Source of the DNA: Patescibacteria group bacterium
Lineage (GTDB): Bacteria; Patescibacteriota; Minisyncoccia; Phycocordibacterales; JACZSL01
DNA: 53,688 nucleotides
NCBI GenBank assembly: GCA_022574205.1
Contig: JACZSL010000004.1
Location: forward strand, 1-53,688
Direction of reading: 5' to 3'
Shown: piece by piece, positions 636 through 52,368 of the stretch
How the letters are laid out: every line of letters starts with the position of its first letter
Numbering within the stretch: position 1 is the stretch's first letter
The notes under the pieces: model-generated
The model's database searches: none
What the model was told of the DNA's origin: nothing
What the model saw: only the letters and a program-made list of their open reading frames with translations
Translations under genes and position numbers: made by a program

Positions 636-1673
636 ATGATTGAATTAAAAAGAGCAAAGGAGAATCCAATTCTGTCGCCCAATAGAGATATTGTGTGGGA
701 GTCAGAAGCTGTTTTTAATCCTGGCGCTATATTAAAAGACGATAAGGTTTACCTACTATACCGCGCGATCGGAGAATATGACACGTACATTTCACGCATC
801 GGATTAGCAACAAGCCGAGATGGCATACACTTTGAAAGGAAAAACAGAGATCCGGTAATAGAGCCACGGGATAGTTACGACAGGTGGGCCTGCGAGGATC
901 CACGCATAACTCAGATAGGTGACATATTTTATATCACATATGTTGCCCTTTCTCAGAGAATAAGAGAAGGGGGGAAGCCTACTTATGAAATAATACATAA
1001 TTTGAATTCTCAAACTGCACTTGTTACCACTAAAGATTTTGTGAAATTTCAGCGACATGGAATTATTACTCCAAAAAATTCTGACAATCGAGACGTAGTG
1101 ATTTTTCCGGAAAAGATTGACGGTAAGTTTGTAATCCTGCACAGACCTCATCGCTGGTGCAAAAACTGGTTCAAAAGTCCGAAATTTAAAAAAATTGATA
1201 TTGGTATTTCAATATCTTTTGAGAAATTACCTCAGAGACCTGCAACTTGGATTTCATATTCGTATGATCTTAAGAACTGGTTTGACCATACATTACTCAT
1301 TCGTTCCAGTCATGAGAGTGATGAAAAAACAGGCCCCGGAGTGCCTCCCATCAGGACAGATAAAGGCTGGCTTTTAATTTACCACCATGTGGAAAAAGAT
1401 GTAAAGAACAGGATCATATATACAGCTAAAGCCGCTCTTCTAGATTTGAGAGATCCTTCAAAAATTATTGCTAAGATCCCATACATGATTTTGTCACCTA
1501 AAGAGAAGTACGAAATTAGCGGAGATGTGGATAATGTTGTTTTTCCCACTGGTGCTTTAGTCAAAAATGATGATCTCTTTGTGTATTATGGAGCGGCGGA
1601 TAAAAATTGCGGATTAGCAACTATTAAACTAAATGAGATCATGGATGAATTTCTAAGATATAGTAATGTCTGA
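636..1673 (+). CDS. GH130 family glycosidase/phosphorylase (beta-mannoside type)
   Basis: The 345-residue product opens with KRAKENPILSP and continues with FNPGAI, YLLYRAIGEYD, IGLATSRDGIHFE and WACEDPRIT, the repeated blade motifs of the five-bladed propeller GH130 family. The Asp of the EDPR motif corresponds to the catalytic acid. Family members phosphorolyse beta-1,4- or beta-1,2-mannosides, releasing mannose-1-phosphate; some hydrolyse instead. Upstream neighbours would convert mannose phosphates to fructose-6-P, so the three genes make a coherent mannoside-use pathway. The gene follows the cupin by 11 bp and ends just before a terminator hairpin. No signal peptide is seen, so it should act in the cytoplasm. 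Confidence 0.88.
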   Translation: MIELKRAKENPILSPNRDIVWESEAVFNPGAILKDDKVYLLYRAIGEYDTYISRIGLATSRDGIHFERKNRDPVIEPRDSYDRWACEDPRITQIGDIFYITYVALSQRIREGGKPTYEIIHNLNSQTALVTTKDFVKFQRHGIITPKNSDNRDVVIFPEKIDGKFVILHRPHRWCKNWFKSPKFKKIDIGISISFEKLPQRPATWISYSYDLKNWFDHTLLIRSSHESDEKTGPGVPPIRTDKGWLLIYHHVEKDVKNRIIYTAKAALLDLRDPSKIIAKIPYMILSPKEKYEISGDVDNVVFPTGALVKNDDLFVYYGAADKNCGLATIKLNEIMDEFLRYSNV

Positions 1674-1710
1674 ACGATAAATGTTTACGTGTTGCCTATC
1701 CAACCAACTG

Positions 1711-1740
1711 AAAACCCACCTATGTGGGTTTTCCTCTTTT
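1711..1740 (+). terminator. Rho-independent terminator after the GH130 gene
   Basis: AAAACCCAC and GTGGGTTTT form a 9-bp stem around a 4-base loop, followed by a T-rich tract. It lies 37 bp after the GH130 stop codon and closes the mannose operon. Confidence 0.85.
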
Positions 1741-1770
1741 ACACCCCACCACAGAGGCCGTTCAGGTCAT

Positions 1771-1924
1771 TCCGACTCTGAGAGTCGTCAGACTCGAATG
1801 AGCTCCCTCGGGACTGAGTCCTCGGGACGAATGTCTGAGGAGCCCTCAGGTCGTTCAGACTCTGAAGAGTCTTCAGACTCGACGAGCTCGATGAGTTCGA
1901 ACGTTCCGCCAAAGGCGGACAGGC
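1771..1924. repeat. Cluster of short adjacent hairpins (GACTC/GAGTC-rich)
   Basis: At least five compact inverted repeats lie side by side: GACTC-TGA-GAGTC (1774-1786), GGACT-G-AGTCC (1811-1821), CTGAGG-AGC-CCTCAG (1835-1849), GACTC-TGAA-GAGTC (1858-1871) and TCCGCC-AAA-GGCGGA (1905-1919). The block is visibly richer in G+C than its flanks. The frames open across it on both strands are low-complexity Ser/Glu/Arg runs and look spurious. The function is unknown. Confidence 0.7.
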
Positions 1925-2080
1925 GGTACACTCGGGGGAGTCCCTCACATTTTAAGACATATACAATTATTACTTTGACTATACGTAGTAATATTATATA
2001 TTCAATATACCAATTAAAAATGTAACTCTTTATCCTATATACGAAAATAATCGGTATTTCTTTCAACTTTACCATATATT

Positions 2081-2953
2081 ATGCAATGGCTACTACTTGC
2101 ACTCATTTCCGCAGTCTTTGCTTCAGCGGCGCTTCTTATTGAAAAAAAGACATTAGCTCGCGAACATGCGATGGAATTCTCCGCAGCGCTGGCTTTTTTT
2201 AATTTGATACTTTCTGTACCTTTTCTCTTTTTTGTGGATTATTCCAGACTTCAAATAATCCCGCTTGTCTACATCTTTTTTCTTATGATATTGGTTGCGA
2301 TGGCGTTCCTGCTTATAGCGAAAAGCATACGGCATATGGAAGTAAGTGCGGTCGCACCATTTCTCGCTCTTACGCCGGCAGTTACCGCAATATTCGCTTT
2401 TATGTTTTTTAATGAAGCGCTTGGCCCGATTCAAATTTTAGGAATTGCACTAATCTTAATAGGAGCATATGTACTGGAGTTGCATAGTGCACACAATCTT
2501 CTTGAGCCATTTAGAATTATTCTAAAGTCAAAGTACGTCCACTTCGTTATTTTGGGAGTTGTTATATACGGCGTGTCTGCTTCCTTCGACAGGATGATTC
2601 TTTCTAAGTACGATTTTCAACCTCTTGCATATTTAGTCTTTGCGAATATTTTTTTGGCGTTCCATTTTTCTATAATGATGAGCATGTTTCATGACGGCTT
2701 TCGCGGATTAAGAAAAAGCATCAATAAATTTGGATGGATGCTCCTGCTGCTTTCAGTTTTTACGATTGCTTATAGACTTTCAATGTTTGAGGCACTCAAA
2801 GTTGAATTTGCCGGACTTGTTGTTTCGGTACAAAAGATGTCCGTCTTTTTTGCCGTTGTAATAGGAGGCGGGATTTTCAAGGAAAGGAGCATTTTAAGAA
2901 AAGCAGTAGCGTCCTTAATAATGATAGGAGGAATGTTGTTTATTATTTTGTAA
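2081..2953 (+). CDS. EamA-family (DMT superfamily) transporter
   Basis: This is a 290-residue, almost entirely hydrophobic protein with about ten predicted membrane helices in two halves, the arrangement of EamA/DMT permeases. Recognisable pieces are LLIAKSIRHMEVSAVAPF near the end of helix 3-4 and LTPAVTAIFAFMFFNEALGPIQILGIALILIGAYVLE, which matches the conserved end of an EamA repeat; a second repeat ends with IGGGIFKERSILRKAVASLIMIGG. Family members export or import metabolites such as amino acids or nucleotide-linked sugars. The substrate cannot be predicted here. It stands alone after the hairpin cluster. Confidence 0.85.
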   Translation: MQWLLLALISAVFASAALLIEKKTLAREHAMEFSAALAFFNLILSVPFLFFVDYSRLQIIPLVYIFFLMILVAMAFLLIAKSIRHMEVSAVAPFLALTPAVTAIFAFMFFNEALGPIQILGIALILIGAYVLELHSAHNLLEPFRIILKSKYVHFVILGVVIYGVSASFDRMILSKYDFQPLAYLVFANIFLAFHFSIMMSMFHDGFRGLRKSINKFGWMLLLLSVFTIAYRLSMFEALKVEFAGLVVSVQKMSVFFAVVIGGGIFKERSILRKAVASLIMIGGMLFIIL

Positions 2954-3009
2954 ACCCCAGCATCAATTGTTACAAAACAGAGGGTTCGAACTTTTGGTAT
3001 ACTTAAAGT

Positions 3010-3225
3010 ATGAGTCTCCTAACATTATTTGGTTTAGTGGCAGTTTCGCTGATGGTTTTATTTTATGCGCTCGAAAAGAAATCCACTCTTTTTATTTTTG
3101 CTTTCGCAATTGCCTGTTTATTAGCATCAGCTTACGGTTTCCTTGTAGGAGCTTGGCCTTTTGGAATCGCAGAGATAATATGGTCAGGAATTGCATTTCG
3201 ACGATGGTGGTCAGTTCGAACTTGA
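3010..3225 (+). CDS. Small membrane protein, two or three helices
   Basis: This 71-residue protein begins MSLLTLFGLVAVSLMVLFYALEKKS and continues with a second hydrophobic stretch and the phrase YGFLVGAWPFGIAEIIWSGIAFRRWW. I recognise this overall pattern from small membrane proteins found widely in bacteria, but know no function for it. An overlapping frame starting at 2967 is a shadow. The start is the ATG at 3010. Confidence 0.7.
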   Translation: MSLLTLFGLVAVSLMVLFYALEKKSTLFIFAFAIACLLASAYGFLVGAWPFGIAEIIWSGIAFRRWWSVRT

Positions 3226-3603
3226 TAATTTTTACATAATAGAGGTTTCCGCCGAACTTGCCCTATTACAAGAAGGGGCGGACAGGCACGTAGATAGGGA
3301 TCAAATTATGGTGTAAAAAAAGTCTACAAACACGGGCTAATAATTTTTTATTGCCTTTCTTTTTTATTGCTTTTCTTTATTGATTGCGGTTAGATTGTCA
3401 TAGGTGTTTGCATCATCTTTTCGGGTTCTTCAACTACAACCATCGGAGCATTTTTAATTTCAGCAGCACTGATAAATTAATAAAACGCCTTAGTAAAACG
3501 GGCAAGAAACGGCTTAAAATATGTTATTTCACACCCCTTTATGTTCATAGGCAATTTTCTATATTACAATATACAGGCGACTATCAATATAACATAGAGT
3601 GAC
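3226..3603. other. Intergenic stretch before nrdJ, with a hairpin and a possible gene remnant
   Basis: A hairpin with TCCGCC (3248-3253) and GGCGGA (3277-3282) arms follows the small membrane gene. Bases 3394-3480 read as 28 hydrophobic residues (beginning IVIGVCIIFSGSS) with no start codon and a stop just upstream, which may be the tail of a decayed membrane gene. No cobalamin riboswitch or other leader could be recognised before the B12-dependent reductase. Confidence 0.4.
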
Positions 3604-5913
3604 ATGAAGAAGATTTCCACTAAGTCTACTGTTTTAAGTAGTGAGATTATTAAAAGAGACGGTTCAATAGTTCCGTTTGATTTGAGAAAAATAGAGAACG
3701 CAATATACAAAGCAATGATTGTTGCCAGAGAATTTAAAACAGGAGCTCCGTTAAAAATTTCAAAAAAAATTCTTGAAAAATTGGTAGCAGAAAAAAAGCG
3801 TAACAATAAACTCACTCCCACAGTAGAGTACATACAGGATTTGGTTGAAGAGGAACTTATGATGCAAAAATTTCCTGCTACAGCAAAAGCGTACATTCTC
3901 TACAGAAGGCAGCATGCAGACCTTAGAAAAAAAGAATTAAAAGTCTCTCCACAAATCCGTTCTCTTGTTAAGGAAAATAAGAAACATTTTAAAAACCAAC
4001 TTTCAGAGTTTATTTTTTACAGTACATACTCAAGATGGCTCCCTGATAAAGGAAGAAGAGAGGCGTGGAGCGAAACAGTGGACAGGTACATGTCGTTTAT
4101 GAAAGAAAATTTAGGCGACAAACTTAAAAAGAGTGAATACAATGAACTTCGCGAGTATATAATAGAAATGAAAGCTCTTGGATCCATGCGACTTTTGTGG
4201 AGTTCCGGAGCACCTGCGCGCAAAAGTAATGTATGCGTTTATAATTGTGCATTCATCGCTCCTGCGTCATGGCAAGATTTTGCAGAGATAATGTATATAT
4301 CAATGTGCGGTACCGGAGTAGGTTTTTCGGTTGAAAGACATACTATTGAGACACTTCCGGTAATAGAAAGACAAACAGGTAAAAAATTACGCAAGTTTGT
4401 GATACCTGACAGTAAAGAGGGGTGGGGCGATGCCTTGTCTTTTGGTATGAGTACTTGGGCGAAAGGAGATGATGTTGAATTTGATTACGGTAAAATTAGA
4501 CCACAAGGAAGTAGGCTTAAAGTAATGGGGGGGAGAGCCTCGGGTCCAGAGCCCCTTAGGAGTTTACTGAACTTTACACGGGAAAAGATGCTTTTAAGAC
4601 AGGGTAGACGTATCACAACTCTGGACGTCCATGATATAGTATGCAAAATTGGGGAAATTGTTGTTGCCGGAGGTGTCAGACGGAGTGCTTTAATCTCACT
4701 TTCTGATTTGGATGACATAGAGATGCGTGAAGCAAAAAATGGACAATTTTACTACACAAACCCTCAACGTATGATGGCAAACAACTCTGCTATTTACAAT
4801 GAAAAGCCGACAATGGAGCAGTTTCTTGACGAATGGCACAATCTTGTTATAAGCGGCACAGGTGAAAGAGGGATCTTTAATAGGGGGAGCCTTAAGAAAC
4901 AAATGCCGACAAGACGTTGGGGTATTTTTAAGAAAGATTTTTGGACTTCCGGACTTAATCCGTGTGGCGAAATTATTCTCAAATCAAAACAATTCTGTAA
5001 TTTGAGCGAAGTGGTTGTTCGCCCTGAAGACACAGAAGAGTCATTGATGGAAAAGATACGCGTGGCGACTATTTTGGGAACGTACCAGGCATCTCTTGTT
5101 AAGTTTCCCTATCTTTCAAAAAAGTGGAAAAAGAACTGTGAAGAAGAAGCTCTTCTTGGGGTATCCATGACAGGGCAGTGGGACAATGAAGCTGTGCGAG
5201 ACCCGCAGGTTATGCGAAGATTGAAAGAAGTTGCAATAGAAACTAATAGAAAGTACGCAAAACGCTTCGGTATAAATCCATCAACAAGTATTACGTGCGT
5301 TAAGCCGTCTGGCAATGGTTCTCAACTTTTTGATTGTGCGTCAGGAATGCATCCAAGGCATGCAAAATACTACATAAGACGAATACGAATAGAGGCTCAT
5401 AATCCGTTGAAAAAATTACTGGAGGATGAGGGTGTACCATTTCATCCGGAAGTGGGACAAGTACGTGACTCCGCAACAACTTGGGTTTTTGAGTTTCCTG
5501 TAAAAGCTCCTAAGAAAGCGGTTACGAGAAATGACTTATCAGCACACAAACAACTTGAGTATTGGAAAAGATTAAAAGAAAATTATTGTGAACATAATCC
5601 GTCGGCAACCATCTCCGTAGAATCTGATGAGTGGCTGGAAGTCGGCAACTGGGTATACACCAATTGGAATATAATTGGAGGACTTTCTTTTCTTCCAAAA
5701 AGCGACCATGTATATCAATTGGCGCCGTATGAAGAAATTTCCCGAGAAAGATACGAAGAGCTTCTTTCAGAATTTCCGAAAATAGACTTCGCCAAATTAG
5801 TTCTATATGAAAATAATGACCAAACGGAAGGAGCTAAAGAGTATGCATGCGTTGGGGGCATGTGCGAGGTTGATGTTGTTGAATCAGATCTTAAGATAAA
5901 AGCGGTAGATTAA
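3604..5913 (+). CDS. nrdJ: Adenosylcobalamin-dependent (class II) ribonucleotide reductase
   Basis: The 769-residue protein makes deoxyribonucleotides using adenosylcobalamin as radical source. An N-terminal ATP-cone (about residues 10-100, IIKRDGSIVPFDLRKIENAIYKA) gives allosteric control. The barrel carries VCVYNCAF (one partner of the redox Cys pair), MCGTGVGFS, and NPCGEI, whose Cys is the thiyl-radical residue. CVKPSGNGSQLFDCASGMHPRHAKYYIRR is a strong class II RTPR signature. The C-terminal CVGGMC pair probably relays electrons from thioredoxin or glutaredoxin. The adenosyltransferase gene begins 4 bp after the stop, so the two are almost certainly co-transcribed. No class I or III reductase genes are visible. 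Confidence 0.95.
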   Translation: MKKISTKSTVLSSEIIKRDGSIVPFDLRKIENAIYKAMIVAREFKTGAPLKISKKILEKLVAEKKRNNKLTPTVEYIQDLVEEELMMQKFPATAKAYILYRRQHADLRKKELKVSPQIRSLVKENKKHFKNQLSEFIFYSTYSRWLPDKGRREAWSETVDRYMSFMKENLGDKLKKSEYNELREYIIEMKALGSMRLLWSSGAPARKSNVCVYNCAFIAPASWQDFAEIMYISMCGTGVGFSVERHTIETLPVIERQTGKKLRKFVIPDSKEGWGDALSFGMSTWAKGDDVEFDYGKIRPQGSRLKVMGGRASGPEPLRSLLNFTREKMLLRQGRRITTLDVHDIVCKIGEIVVAGGVRRSALISLSDLDDIEMREAKNGQFYYTNPQRMMANNSAIYNEKPTMEQFLDEWHNLVISGTGERGIFNRGSLKKQMPTRRWGIFKKDFWTSGLNPCGEIILKSKQFCNLSEVVVRPEDTEESLMEKIRVATILGTYQASLVKFPYLSKKWKKNCEEEALLGVSMTGQWDNEAVRDPQVMRRLKEVAIETNRKYAKRFGINPSTSITCVKPSGNGSQLFDCASGMHPRHAKYYIRRIRIEAHNPLKKLLEDEGVPFHPEVGQVRDSATTWVFEFPVKAPKKAVTRNDLSAHKQLEYWKRLKENYCEHNPSATISVESDEWLEVGNWVYTNWNIIGGLSFLPKSDHVYQLAPYEEISRERYEELLSEFPKIDFAKLVLYENNDQTEGAKEYACVGGMCEVDVVESDLKIKAVD

Positions 5914-22563: not shown

Positions 22564-22755
22564 CATTTGTGCCCGGGGCGGGAGTCGGCCCAAGTCACTA
22601 ATTCGCTTCGCTCATAAGTGCTTGCGGCCCCGGCTCGCTATTGTAGAGCGATATGCTCCGCCTTTCGACTCCCGACGAAAGCAAAGCAGTTTGCTTTCTC
22701 CCCGGACTAAAAACACAATATTCGATGCACCAAAGTGCACCGAATATTGCATTTG
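22564..22755 (-). repeat. Structured element with tRNA-Leu 3'-end copies
   Basis: Read leftward from tRNA-Leu, there is a hairpin (AATATTCGGTGCAC.../CGAATATT, about 22721-22750), then an inverted T-arm copy (CGGGAGTCGAAAGG, about 22665-22678). A GC-rich segment with TTATGAGCGAAGCGAATTAG follows, and finally a direct copy of the tRNA 3' end. The 24-base CATTTGTGCCCGGGGCGGGAGTCG string occurs at both 22564-22587 and 22750-22773. Confidence 0.7.
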
Positions 22756-22837
22756 TGCCCGGGGCGGGAGTCGAACCCGCATGTCTTGCGACACAAAATT
22801 TTAAGTCTTGCGTGTATACCAATTCCACCACCCGGGC
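22756..22837 (-). tRNA. tRNA-Leu (UAA)
   Basis: The acceptor stem is GCCCGGG/CCCGGGC. The anticodon loop is CTTAAAA (anticodon TAA). The long variable arm TTTGTGTCGCAAGACA and T-arm GCGGGTTCGACTCCCGC complete a standard tRNA-Leu. CCA is not encoded. Confidence 0.95.
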
Positions 22838-22845
22838 GTATTATT

Positions 22846-23025
22846 AGGGGAATCGACCTCCAAGTCACTAAATATATTATTTCACTACGCTCATAATCTA
22901 TTAAGTACTCGTGGGCTCGGCTCGGCGCTTAATCGTCCCAAGGACACGAGCCTGTGCCTGTTCGATTCCCACTCTGCTTCTTACAGAACACATAGCCATA
23001 GAAAACAGGGCGATGTGTTCTGTTG
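22846..23025 (-). repeat. Structured element with tRNA-Cys T-arm copies
   Basis: Leftward from tRNA-Cys there is a terminator-like hairpin (ACAGAACACAT.../ATGTGTTCTGT, about 22983-23023). An inverted T-arm copy follows (GAGTGGGAATCGAACAGG, about 22959-22976), then a segment with TTATGAGCGTAGTGAAATAA and TTAGTGACTTGG, and a direct copy (GAGGTCGATTCCCCT, about 22846-22860). The inner strings are shared with the element after tRNA-Leu. Confidence 0.65.
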
Positions 23026-23097
23026 AGGCCTGAGGGGGAATCGAACCCCCGCATGGAGGATTTGCAGTCCTCAGTGTTACCACTTCACCATCAGGCC
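23026..23097 (-). tRNA. tRNA-Cys (GCA)
   Basis: The acceptor stem is GGCCTGA/TCAGGCC. The anticodon loop is CTGCAAA (anticodon GCA) and the T-arm is GGGGGTTCGATTCCCCC. Confidence 0.95.
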
Positions 23098-23104
23098 TAT
23101 TCAT

Positions 23105-23222
23105 CCCGTTAGAGATAGTCCGCCTCAGGCGGACGTTGATTAACTACTGATAATAAATATACACATATCTTTTTTTGTCTTTTGCTTGATTTGGTATACA
23201 TAACTGTTTAATCTTTAACGGG
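23105..23222 (-). repeat. CCCG...CGGG inverted-repeat element between rbfA and tRNA-Cys
   Basis: On the minus strand the left arm CCCGTTAAAGATTA pairs with the right arm CTATCTCTAACGGG, and both ends are flanked by ATGAAT (23223-23228 and 23099-23104). The left arm overlaps the last codons of rbfA and provides its TAA stop. A perfect GTCCGCCTCAGGCGGAC palindrome (23118-23134) lies inside next to the right arm. No coding sequence starts at the right ATG; tRNA-Cys follows. Confidence 0.75.
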
Positions 23223-23541
23223 ATTCATTTAATAACTCATCGATGCGCCTACGATTCTTTTCTCCTTCATCAATGGCAAAATCAAAGTAGGGTAGTCGCT
23301 TTAGTCTCGAGTTCTTTTTAACGTAACTCCTAAAATCCGAACGCTTTCTCTTTACAAAGTTAAGAGCATTTTGAGATGCATCTACTGGCATAACACTTAT
23401 TAATATTGTAGCTTTTTTGCCATCCATTGAGAGATCTACACCAGTTACTGTAATGAGGCTGGTGCGATTTGATTCTACACTCAGATATTGTGCAGCTAAC
23501 TGGCGCAGTATTTCCGAAGCTCTTCCACCTCTATCAGTCAT
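23215..23541 (-). CDS. rbfA: Ribosome-binding factor A
   Basis: The 108-residue protein has the KH-like RbfA pattern: RASEILRQLAAQYLSVESN, LITVTGVDLSMDGKKATILISVMP and LKRLPYFDFAIDEGEKNRRRIDELL. It helps mature the 3'/5' ends of 16S rRNA in the 30S subunit. It lies 6 bp after infB, the usual neighbour. Its last two codons and stop lie in the left arm of an inverted-repeat element, so insertion of that element may have reshaped the C-terminus. Confidence 0.93.
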   Translation of the reverse strand: MTDRGGRASEILRQLAAQYLSVESNRTSLITVTGVDLSMDGKKATILISVMPVDASQNALNFVKRKRSDFRSYVKKNSRLKRLPYFDFAIDEGEKNRRRIDELLNESR

Positions 23542-30431: not shown

Positions 30432-30516
30432 TGCGTCGGTACTCAAGCGGTCAACGAGGACGGACTGTAAATCCGTTGAACATGTTCTACGCAGGTTCGA
30501 ATCCTGCCCGGCGCAC
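30432..30516 (+). tRNA. tRNA-Tyr (GUA)
   Basis: The acceptor stem is TGCGTCG/CGGCGCA. The anticodon loop is CTGTAAA (anticodon GTA), the variable arm is long, as in bacterial tRNA-Tyr, and the T-arm is GCAGGTTCGAATCCTGC. CCA is not encoded. Confidence 0.93.
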
Positions 30517-30565: not shown

Positions 30566-30768
30566 TGTTCGGCAGGATTCGAAAAGCTTTTGAGATAGAT
30601 TTGAGTCGAAGACGAAAATATATCCAAAAGGTGAGACGCGATTTTATGAGCGTCGCAAGGCTCATTGAGGGCTTTTATGAAGCGGCGAAATAAAAGACCC
30701 AATGAGTGGACAGCCTCTGTAAGAGGTACTGCTCCTGTAATGAGAGAAATTCTTACCCGACGCACATA
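30566..30768 (+). repeat. Structured element with tRNA-Tyr 3'-end copies
   Basis: It begins with an inverted T-arm copy (TTCGGCAGGATTCGAA, about 30568-30583) and ends with a diverged direct copy of the tRNA-Tyr 3' end (ATTCTTACCCGACGCACA, about 30749-30766). Inside are TTTTATGAGCGTCGC and TTTTATGAAGCGGCGAAATA, like the core strings of the elements after tRNA-Leu and tRNA-Cys. A reverse frame across it (30553-30765) is treated as spurious. Confidence 0.65.
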
Positions 30769-30771
30769 GAC

Positions 30772-30802
30772 AAAAAACTTTAGCTTTCCGCTAAAGTTTT
30801 TT
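30772..30802 (+). terminator. Terminator after the tRNA-Tyr-derived element
   Basis: AAAAAACTTTAGC and GCTAAAGTTTTTT pair perfectly around a small loop, suggesting that the element at 30566-30768 is transcribed and ended here. Confidence 0.88.
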
Positions 30803-30817
30803 GCTCTATATGCCTAT

Positions 30818-30910
30818 GCAGGATTCGAATACACTTAGCAAATTACTGCGATATATCGCAGTAATTTGATTTGGTGAAGGGTGACCGAATCCTACCCCCG
30901 TGGATAACTG
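30818..30910 (+). repeat. Second T-arm-bounded element with a 30-bp perfect palindrome
   Basis: GCAGGATTCGAAT (30818-30830) and CCGAATCCTACC (about 30895-30906) are inverted T-arm-like ends. Between them 30839-30868 is a perfect palindrome with half-site CAAATTACTGCGATA. The same CGATATATCG centre lies in a palindrome at about 6558-6580. The rest of the 30340-31152 gap is covered by other entries here. Confidence 0.6.
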
Positions 30911-30949
30911 TTCCAAAGAGCATTTCTTAGTTACAATAAGGATATGAAT

Positions 30950-31152
30950 CCCGTTAGAGATAGTTAATAGTTACGTATGATCTCAACGAACAAAATAAGT
31001 AAAATAAGTAAATGTACACCAAAGATAAAAAATAACTTACGGAAACGCCCCAATAGGCACAACACCCAGGTCGATGAAAAGATTTTTAGAAAATAATAAA
31101 CTTGGAGATGCTATTTTAACTTCGTTATTTGGCGTTTCCTATCTCTAACGGG
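30950..31152 (+). promoter_or_regulatory. Inverted-repeat leader of the pilin gene
   Basis: ATCCCGTTAGAGATAG (30948-30963) and CTATCTCTAACGGGAT (31139-31154) are perfect 16-base arms. The start codon ATG follows the right GGG directly. Flanking direct repeats ATGAAT occur at 30944-30949 and 31153-31158. The right arm holds TAA 4 bp before the start. Confidence 0.85.
31074..31148 (+). CDS. Possible 24-residue leader ORF before the pilin gene
   Basis: A frame from the ATG at 31074 (MKRFLENNKLGDAILTSLFG...) ends with the TAA inside the right arm at 31146, 4 bp before the pilin start. Bases before its ATG include a weak AGG. The spacing would allow termination-reinitiation coupling. No homologue is known to me. 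Confidence 0.4.
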   Translation: MKRFLENNKLGDAILTSLFGVSYL

Positions 31153-51850: not shown

Positions 51851-51886
51851 AATTGTCAGGAGTTTTTGTTATACTGCAAACACTAT

Positions 51887-51957
51887 TGCCGGATCGTCTA
51901 ATGGTAGGACGCTGGGTTTTGGTCCCAGAAATCTAGGTTCGAGTCCTAGTCCGGCAG
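51887..51957 (+). tRNA. tRNA-Gln (UUG)
   Basis: The acceptor stem is TGCCGGA/TCCGGCA. The D-arm is CGTCTAATGGTAGGACG, the anticodon loop is TTTTGGT (anticodon TTG) and the T-arm is CTAGGTTCGAGTCCTAG. CCA is not encoded. Confidence 0.95.
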
Positions 51958-52368
51958 CCCTTCTTCCCTTCGGTCATCAGGGCCTACGGCACTGGTGTAT
52001 ATCCGAAAGAAGGCTCTGAGGAGTTTTCGACGAAGAGAAATAAATATGTACTGTACTTACATTCTTCAATGCAGCGACAACCTGTACTGATCCTGTAAGG
52101 ATCGAGACTCCTAGTCCGGCAGCTAGAGCAGTTCCGACTCCGATACGGAGTATCGGGGCGAAACTGGTCTTTGTCCGGCTAGGACTCGAAAGACGGAGCC
52201 GGTTTACGATTTTTCGTAGAAAAATTGTCGGCGAGTCGGGGTCGAGAGTGCTTAGTATTTTAGCACACGGAGTGTGTTAAAATGGTTAGCAACTCGTGAC
52301 CGAGTCCTACTCCGATACGGAGTATCGGGGCGAAACTGGTCTTTGTCCGGCTAGAACTCAAAAAGGTA
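51958..52368 (+). repeat. Array of tRNA-Gln 3'-end copies and a 55-bp direct repeat
   Basis: A direct copy of the tRNA 3' end (GAGACTCCTAGTCCGGCAGC) lies at about 52104-52123. Inverted copies (GTCCGGCTAGGACTCGAA and GTCCGGCTAGAACTCAAA) lie at about 52173-52190 and 52345-52362. A 55-bp segment at 52137-52191 is repeated at 52309-52363 with two changes; each contains the hairpin CCGATAC-GGA-GTATCGG. A direct CCGAGTCCTA copy lies at about 52300. No gene is seen before rlmB. Confidence 0.7.

Follow-up and report, generated by a model that had tools for sequence, protein, structure and literature searches.

We examined a 53,688-nt stretch of DNA from a Patescibacteria group bacterium (GenBank assembly GCA_022574205.1, contig JACZSL010000004.1, positions 1 to 53,688; hereafter the window), in which two transfer RNA (tRNA) genes, tRNA-Cys(GCA) and tRNA-Leu(TAA), are each followed on the minus strand by a short element carrying copies of the 3' end of its own tRNA. 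The element is probably a short mobile insertion without an open reading frame (ORF), whose main target would be the tRNA T-loop between U55 and C56 (GGTT|C). On insertion, the tRNA would retain nucleotides 1-55 and gain an intact 3' end (C56 to the discriminator) together with a terminator, and the original 3' end would be displaced to the far side of the element, where it appears as the direct copy. A conserved core (helices P2 and P3) would thus stand between the restored and displaced ends, preceded by an inverted copy of the T-arm that could pair with the restored tRNA end as a long hairpin or, as helix P1 in a three-way junction, with the displaced end. A recombinase or another enzyme would probably recognise the folded single strand, which may be RNA or single-stranded DNA. 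The simplest origin of the inverted arm would be copying of the local tRNA end, either through fold-back synthesis or through intrastrand template switching.

Every part described in an earlier, sequence-only reading of this region was present behind both genes: a terminator-like hairpin, an inverted copy of the tRNA's own T-arm, a common inner segment and a direct copy of its own 3' end (Table 1). Together, the inverted copy and the tRNA 3' end make up a single long quasi-palindrome, one arm each, whose tip is the terminator. At the Cys locus this corresponds to inverted repeat I1, with 38-nt arms (22960-22997/23009-23046); the Leu quasi-palindrome also contains an inserted hairpin (22675-22699), whose CAAACTGCTTTG loop was found again in many relatives. 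The Leu direct copy is exact over 24 nt, and when the trailer is included it extends to 31 nt at 94%. With up to 3 mismatches, the inner 16-mer had eight matches in the window compared to 1.6 expected (0 of 100 shuffles reached 8). The 12-mer TTAGTGACTTGG at 2 mismatches was not significant in the window, and both of its exact copies fall inside the Leu and Cys elements. A covariance model (R1), built from 25 MAFFT-aligned and folded copies sharing one P3 length, recognised the two copies with scores of 99.0 and 44.8 bits (E 6e-28 and 2.5e-11, respectively).

Across genomes, a same-strand tRNA lies upstream of 188 of the 246 unique copies, with a modal distance of about 55 nt, and no copy had an antisense tRNA only; five further copies lie behind transfer-messenger RNA (tmRNA). 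Isotypes of all kinds serve as sites. A set retrieved without the T-arm in the query gave a similar picture (62 of 93 behind a tRNA, none antisense-only). The sequence-only reading had also proposed that the ends of the element follow the neighbouring tRNA, and this was borne out in other genomes, where no lack of correlation was found. Among 159 elements, the inverted copy had a mean score of 10.8 against its own tRNA and 6.6 against other tRNAs, and the direct copy 12.7 and 5.6 (0 of 2000 permutations in each case). The own tRNA outscored same-anticodon tRNAs from other genomes in 80-83% of comparisons. In the complete genome G107, 11 of 14 inverted copies and 12 of 14 direct copies scored best with their own tRNA among all 37, and an inverted copy lies downstream of 12 of the 37 tRNAs and upstream of none. 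Among the exceptions were the two tRNA-Glu copies, which by eye have an acceptor-end copy only.

The three copies of the tRNA end were then compared position by position. Over positions 56-65 of 150 elements, the tRNA, the inverted copy and the direct copy agreed in 1057 of 1500 cells. In the T-stem, both copies agreed against the tRNA in 42 of 750 cells, compared to 220 with shuffled tRNAs; with so few joint changes away from the tRNA, the arms are decaying tRNA copies and not a helix maintained by compensation. Deviations confined to one copy numbered 60 for the inverted and 113 for the direct copy at positions 56-63 (p = 7e-5). Since the inverted copy is the closer of the two to the tRNA, copying from the local tRNA is preferred over a pre-existing guide arm, a candidate that we rejected because the inverted copy would then be expected to carry more mismatches than the direct one. 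Identity between the restored end and the direct copy extends from C56 as far as the tRNA 3' end and drops to background beyond it (0.67 for offset 17 and 0.32 for offset 22), the picture that would be expected from a U55|C56 insertion with a restored tRNA. In the listed examples, each tRNA 3'-end copy has its own terminator.

It was noted that some copies do not stand at tRNAs. At L093, L102 and L104, elements lie directly behind a protein gene ending in WSKR and carry inverted and direct copies of the gene end. At L169 (G000:C2 near 51299) and L120 (2274-2380), the element lies within the 3' end of a protein gene (..IPERCSDKTCPNHNPHK..), about 75 nt of which is duplicated; most differences between the copies are at synonymous sites. 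We also considered a long target-site duplication and rejected it: about 75 nt is duplicated at some sites (L263; L169, L120), yet the usual boundary is the tRNA end.

The conserved fold is a three-way junction in which P1 pairs the inverted with the direct copy, P2 contains a GGA/GA internal loop and P3 has variable tips. All 28 base pairs were changed on both sides among 117 distinct rows, in 712 cells compared to 195 in shuffles (0 of 500 reached this value), counts that lean towards the model since the alignment was fitted to R1; in a model-free MAFFT alignment, 14 pairs were already changed on both sides. Shifting the partner by one column reduced pairing from 95.9% to 38-39%. P1 was the least conserved helix (91.9% paired, compared to 96-99% in the others). 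Mismatch cells of the G.T and A.C types stood at 140:31 in P2/P3 and at 95:64 in P1. Because a constraint on double-stranded DNA would give equal numbers of the two, the tRNA-sense single strand is the predicted folding form, whether as RNA or as single-stranded DNA.

We assessed the distribution of the family in a sample consisting mostly of metagenome-assembled genomes. The genome that contains the window (G000, 650 kb) has 15 R1 matches (E <= 1), of which the window holds three (the Leu and Cys elements and the one behind tRNA-Gln), and a pattern search found a like arrangement behind tRNA-Ile, tRNA-Ser and a tRNA-Ser fragment. A gap-pattern scan of 84,980 species genomes returned 85 stretches, nearly all from Paceibacteria (Kaiser-, Yonath-, Lloyd-, Nomura- and Zambryskibacteria, among others), with a few unrelated chance matches. 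A covariance search, a check that the sequence-only reading had named for the surroundings of tRNAs, recovered R1 matches in 162 of 197 order relatives, with up to about 20 per genome; as 20 candidates per genome were scored, the per-genome counts are lower bounds. At a stricter cut-off, a phylum-wide R1 scan matched 36 of 287 genomes, including other classes, again behind tRNAs with matching arms. Among 20 loci from distant genomes, most lie behind a tRNA or tmRNA and have the layout of tRNA end, inverted copy, core and direct copy, with shorter P3 hairpins. The complete genome G107 has 19 R1 matches (E <= 1), and elements were also found in the single-contig genomes G340, G302 and G430 and in independent studies. 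Comparison of the window region and six further loci with Rfam 15 returned only tRNA/tmRNA and chance matches, none above the threshold of another family, and the element family is undescribed in the open-access literature searched. No ORF of note was found in an ORF search of the 100-250-nt unit. Isolated TGAGCGNAGYGA hairpins flanked by A/T-rich inverted repeats also occur away from tRNAs in G000 (L005, L006, L007, L012).

Orthologous sites were found in both filled and empty versions among relatives, although not at strain level. In the conserved block rbfA - tRNA-Cys - tRNA-Leu - tRNA-Lys - tRNA-Leu, the Cys-Leu gap is 3-4 nt in G030/G031 and 14 nt in G004, all three without an R1 match; where it holds an element, it measures 188 nt (G000) and 269 nt (G013). 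The same syntenic gap contains a free-standing, endonuclease-like ORF of the HNH type in G002, G006 and G046 (549-573 nt; L266, L257, L262) and of the GIY-YIG type in G040 (277 nt; L255). Core identity was 0.646 between different tRNAs of the same genome, 0.606 between genomes for the same anticodon and 0.607 for different anticodons, and the nearest-neighbour core came from the same genome in 29 of 113 cases and had the same anticodon in 8. Cores are thus more alike within a genome than by anticodon, indicating spread within genomes rather than inheritance with the tRNA. Identical tandem element copies are also present.

Several pairs of copies enclose other genes. In G056, a Gabija operon (GajA, E 1.8e-153; GajB, E 3.5e-184) lies between two 99% identical copies in direct orientation, 3.8 kb apart. 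These copies split tRNA-Ala(TGC), with its 5' part before the first copy and the matching 3' end after the second, and no other match to the tRNA-Ala(TGC) anticodon-arm pattern was found in this genome (89% complete); possible reasons are a missing second gene copy, a mixed population or some other process. In G001, two copies with 93% identity enclose a 361-aa ORF, and at L107 two dissimilar copies enclose one of 354 aa. In G107, an element matching tRNA-Gln(CTG) lies 17.6 kb from that tRNA, with an island between them (G107:C1:714162-732056; L323/L324). The island carries a large serine recombinase, a terminase-like gene, type I restriction-modification, Cap15, a nucleotidyltransferase and a LexA-like repressor, of which the Cap15/nucleotidyltransferase pair is suggestive of a cyclic-oligonucleotide-based anti-phage signalling system (CBASS). 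A Shedu-like gene was noted near a Ser-type element in G156. At L081 (2290-4950), an array of small-ORF cassettes was observed, each closed by a tRNA-like unit of terminator, inverted copy, core and direct copy; GGTTCTAAC junctions recur along the array, as do promoter-like blocks of about 100 nt.

A number of observations weigh against a mobile element. No case was found of an insertion that distinguishes near-identical genomes; neither a circular nor a free form of the element was seen; and an exact-pattern scan of viral contigs returned 0 copies. Vertical retention followed by decay could be the source of part of the distribution. Among candidate enzymes, RVT_1 is absent from G000 and G001, each of which had 14 R1 matches in the order scan, PF07508 (large serine recombinase) is absent from the same two element-rich genomes, and PF00589 (tyrosine recombinase) has no match in element-rich G107. 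To our knowledge, no textbook site-specific recombination leaves the inserted DNA with an inverted copy of its target, so that arm copying is an added assumption. PF07508 is also present in many genomes without R1 matches, and PF00589 has one match in G000, a count that does not separate IntI from Xer. Reverse transcriptase, tyrosine recombinase and large serine recombinase were each rejected as a required resident mobiliser, being missing from some element-rich genomes. The mobilising factor may belong to another family, may be supplied in trans or may have been lost.

Closest to the mobile-insertion reading, overlapping with it and differing in the agent, is the proposal that gene cassettes or islands end in the element as an att-like recombination site. 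Under this view, the small elements would be empty or decayed cargo units, and an integrase of the serine or tyrosine type, provided by the cargo, would have placed them at tRNA GGTT|C, as in cassette arrays. The Gabija operon between direct copies, the 361-aa and 354-aa ORFs, the small-ORF array with its tRNA-like ends and recurrent junctions, and the G107 island with its large serine recombinase between tRNA-Gln and the matching element all fit this proposal. We nevertheless regard it as possible but somewhat doubtful, since most copies are without cargo, such integrases need no inverted arm, and the large serine recombinase family shows the distribution described above. A growth of the arms in place was also weighed, in which inverted copies would arise by quasi-palindrome template switching behind terminators and direct copies by local duplication, with no mobility at all. 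It would agree with the single long quasi-palindrome centred on the terminator, with the closer match of the inverted copy to the tRNA, and with fragments repeated in tandem arrays. Yet it does not yield the same P2/P3 core at hundreds of unrelated tRNAs or between cargo copies; weakened by this shared core, it is very improbable as a full account and survives only as the arm-copying step of the mobile-insertion reading.

A functional role in the tRNA trailer appears unlikely. A cis-acting or small regulatory RNA, whose inverted arm would compete for the tRNA 3' half or mimic the T-arm and so control termination, 3' processing or turnover, is in keeping with the strongly conserved single-strand fold and the G.U preference in P2/P3, as well as with the element always standing on the tRNA strand with arms complementary to its own tRNA. 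Against it, P1 is the least constrained helix and is without compensatory drift, the core follows the terminator, isotypes are used indiscriminately and do not define groups of cores, syntenic tRNAs are often without an element, and copies occur behind protein genes and cargo. The suggestions of the sequence-only reading that the elements fold into tRNA-end mimics or act as processing decoys are disfavoured by the poorly conserved P1 with its weak G.T preference, by the rarity of joint changes, by the position of the core beyond the tRNA terminator and by the elements behind protein genes and cargo. Its remaining suggestion, that they mark insertion at tRNA 3' ends, finds support in the occupied and compact orthologous clusters, the tandem copies, the spread within genomes and the cargo between copies. 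Least plausible is an assembly or binning artefact or tRNA pseudogene debris. The preponderance of metagenome-assembled genomes, some copies at contig ends and a tRNA-Ser copy in G000 that is a fragment would speak for it, but it is already refuted for the family as a whole by the single-contig genomes (G107 and the three others), the independent studies and the covariation of every pair in the fold.

The layout of the mobile-insertion reading works like that of tRNA-targeting integrative elements. As in tyrosine-integrase islands at tRNA 3' ends, the insertion point lies in the T-arm, the 3' end is restored, the displaced 3' end forms a distal direct repeat, and tandem accretion occurs. Unlike these islands, the 100-250-nt unit has no ORF and hence no integrase of its own, one core serves nearly all isotypes and tmRNA, an extra inverted copy of the target is present, and the element-rich complete genome G107 lacks a tyrosine integrase (PF00589). 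Integron cassettes and attC sites resemble the element in their structured site foldable as a single strand, their arrays, their cargo ORFs and the defence genes in the cargo. They differ in that the element mainly targets tRNA genes, that its P1 copies the target, and that its right junction is GTGAC|C (GTGAC|CRANTCC in alignments) rather than a GTTRRRY box, as judged by reading the alignments.

Repetitive extragenic palindromic (REP) sequences with their associated tyrosine transposases (RAYT), miniature inverted-repeat transposable elements (MITEs), Rickettsia palindromic elements and mitochondrial double-hairpin elements are likewise short, ORF-less, hairpin-rich, multicopy and extragenic. 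Their ends are fixed, whereas the arms of the present element match each adjacent tRNA. Quasi-palindrome correction, that is, intrastrand template switching, would account for an inverted arm matching the adjacent tRNA, but it is a mutation mechanism rather than an element and yields no shared core. A retroelement would call for a reverse transcriptase in the element or its host, yet RVT_1 is absent from G000 and G001. Likeness to hammerhead, hepatitis delta virus (HDV)-like, group I/II intron, retron and diversity-generating retroelement (DGR) sequences was considered and gained no support from any test.

Further modules were noted in the window behind tRNA-Tyr and between tRNA-Gln and its main-type (type-A) element. 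These are related to the main element and have a different core with CCTGTAAGG-type hairpins. Both tRNA-Tyr modules carry inverted and direct T-arm copies and reach only 11 bits with R1, and so do not have the same core; the motif of the Gln type-B module recurs in 11 of the retrieved loci. A repeated string, (A)ATCCCGTTAGAGATAG, occurs in the window at 23103-23116, 23211-23224 and about 30947-30965, and followed by an inverted copy it is also found behind tRNA-Arg(CCT) in G107.

Table 1. Coordinates of the tRNA genes, element parts and related modules in the window, and of the Gabija operon in G056.
Feature	Position	Strand	Basis
tRNA-Leu(TAA)	22755-22837	-	ARAGORN; Rfam tRNA 58.7 bits
Template copy T of Leu (tRNA 3' part from C56)	22756-22773	-	
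Terminator-like hairpin, Leu element, tip of the T:I quasi-palindrome (arms 22711-22730/22735-22754)	22711-22754	-	inverted repeat I2
Inverted acceptor 3'-strand copy GTCCGGGG, Leu element	22700-22707	-	sequence
Accessory hairpin P0 AGAAAGCAAACTGCTTTGCTTTCGT, Leu element, between acceptor copy and T-arm copy	22675-22699	-	sequence
Inverted copy I of tRNA-Leu T-arm CGGGAGTCGAA (P1 5' strand)	22664-22674	-	inverted repeat I6, 11/11; model R1
P2 hairpin with GGA/GA internal loop, Leu element	22628-22663	-	R1 alignment; covariation
P3 hairpin with TTATGAGCGAAGCGAA...TTAGTGACTTG, Leu element	22588-22627	-	R1 alignment; covariation
Inner strings of Leu element, TTATGAGCGAAGCGAA; TTAGTGACTTGG	22602-22617; 22590-22601	-	
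Direct copy D of tRNA-Leu 3' end CGACTCCCGCCCCGGGCACAAATG (putative displaced old 3' end)	22564-22587	-	direct repeats D1/D2
tRNA-Cys(GCA)	23025-23097	-	ARAGORN; Rfam tRNA 65.4 bits
Template copy T of Cys	23026-23043	-	
Terminator-like hairpin, Cys element, inner part of inverted repeat I1	22983-23023	-	I1
Inverted copy I of tRNA-Cys T-arm GGGAATCGAAC	22960-22970	-	I1; R1
P2 hairpin, Cys element	22919-22959	-	R1 alignment
P3 hairpin with TTATGAGCGTAGTGAA and TTAGTGACTTGG, Cys element	22857-22918	-	R1 alignment
Inner strings of Cys element, TTATGAGCGTAGTGAA; TTAGTGACTTGG	22881-22896; 22860-22871	-	
Direct copy D of tRNA-Cys T-arm only, TCGATTCCCC, 10 nt	22847-22856	-	repeat D6
tRNA-Gln(TTG), tandem array behind	51886-51960	+	ARAGORN
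Type-B module ending in CTGTACTGATCCTGTAAGGATCGAGACTCCTAGTCCGGCAGC, a second tRNA-Gln 3'-end copy (52104-52123)	51961-52123	+	sequence
Third type-A (main) element of the window, arms matching tRNA-Gln	52179-52310	+	R1 66.5 bits
Type-B module (30571-30766) and further module (30818-30902) behind tRNA-Tyr (30433-30516)	30571-30902	+	sequence
Gabija operon of G056	L352 (G056:C1:11500-18500), 1583-5558		

A bolder reading, which we regard as less likely than not, is a new class of mobile element, one in which the closing or target-recognition arm might be rewritten at each insertion from the local gene end, so that one core could fit any tRNA and some protein genes, and which might act as an end site where cargo, for example anti-phage systems, is captured and exchanged in Patescibacteria. 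The genomes of this phylum are tiny, yet many hold at least 10 copies of the element. If the elements move, the 3' ends and terminators of essential tRNA genes would be reshaped and the insertion sites of cargo would be marked, which is relevant because gene exchange in the phylum is poorly understood. Copying of the arm would also raise the question of how a 100-nt core gains a sequence-specific copy of every new target. The family allows the annotation of tRNA-end duplications and long palindromes that would otherwise be taken for pseudogenes.
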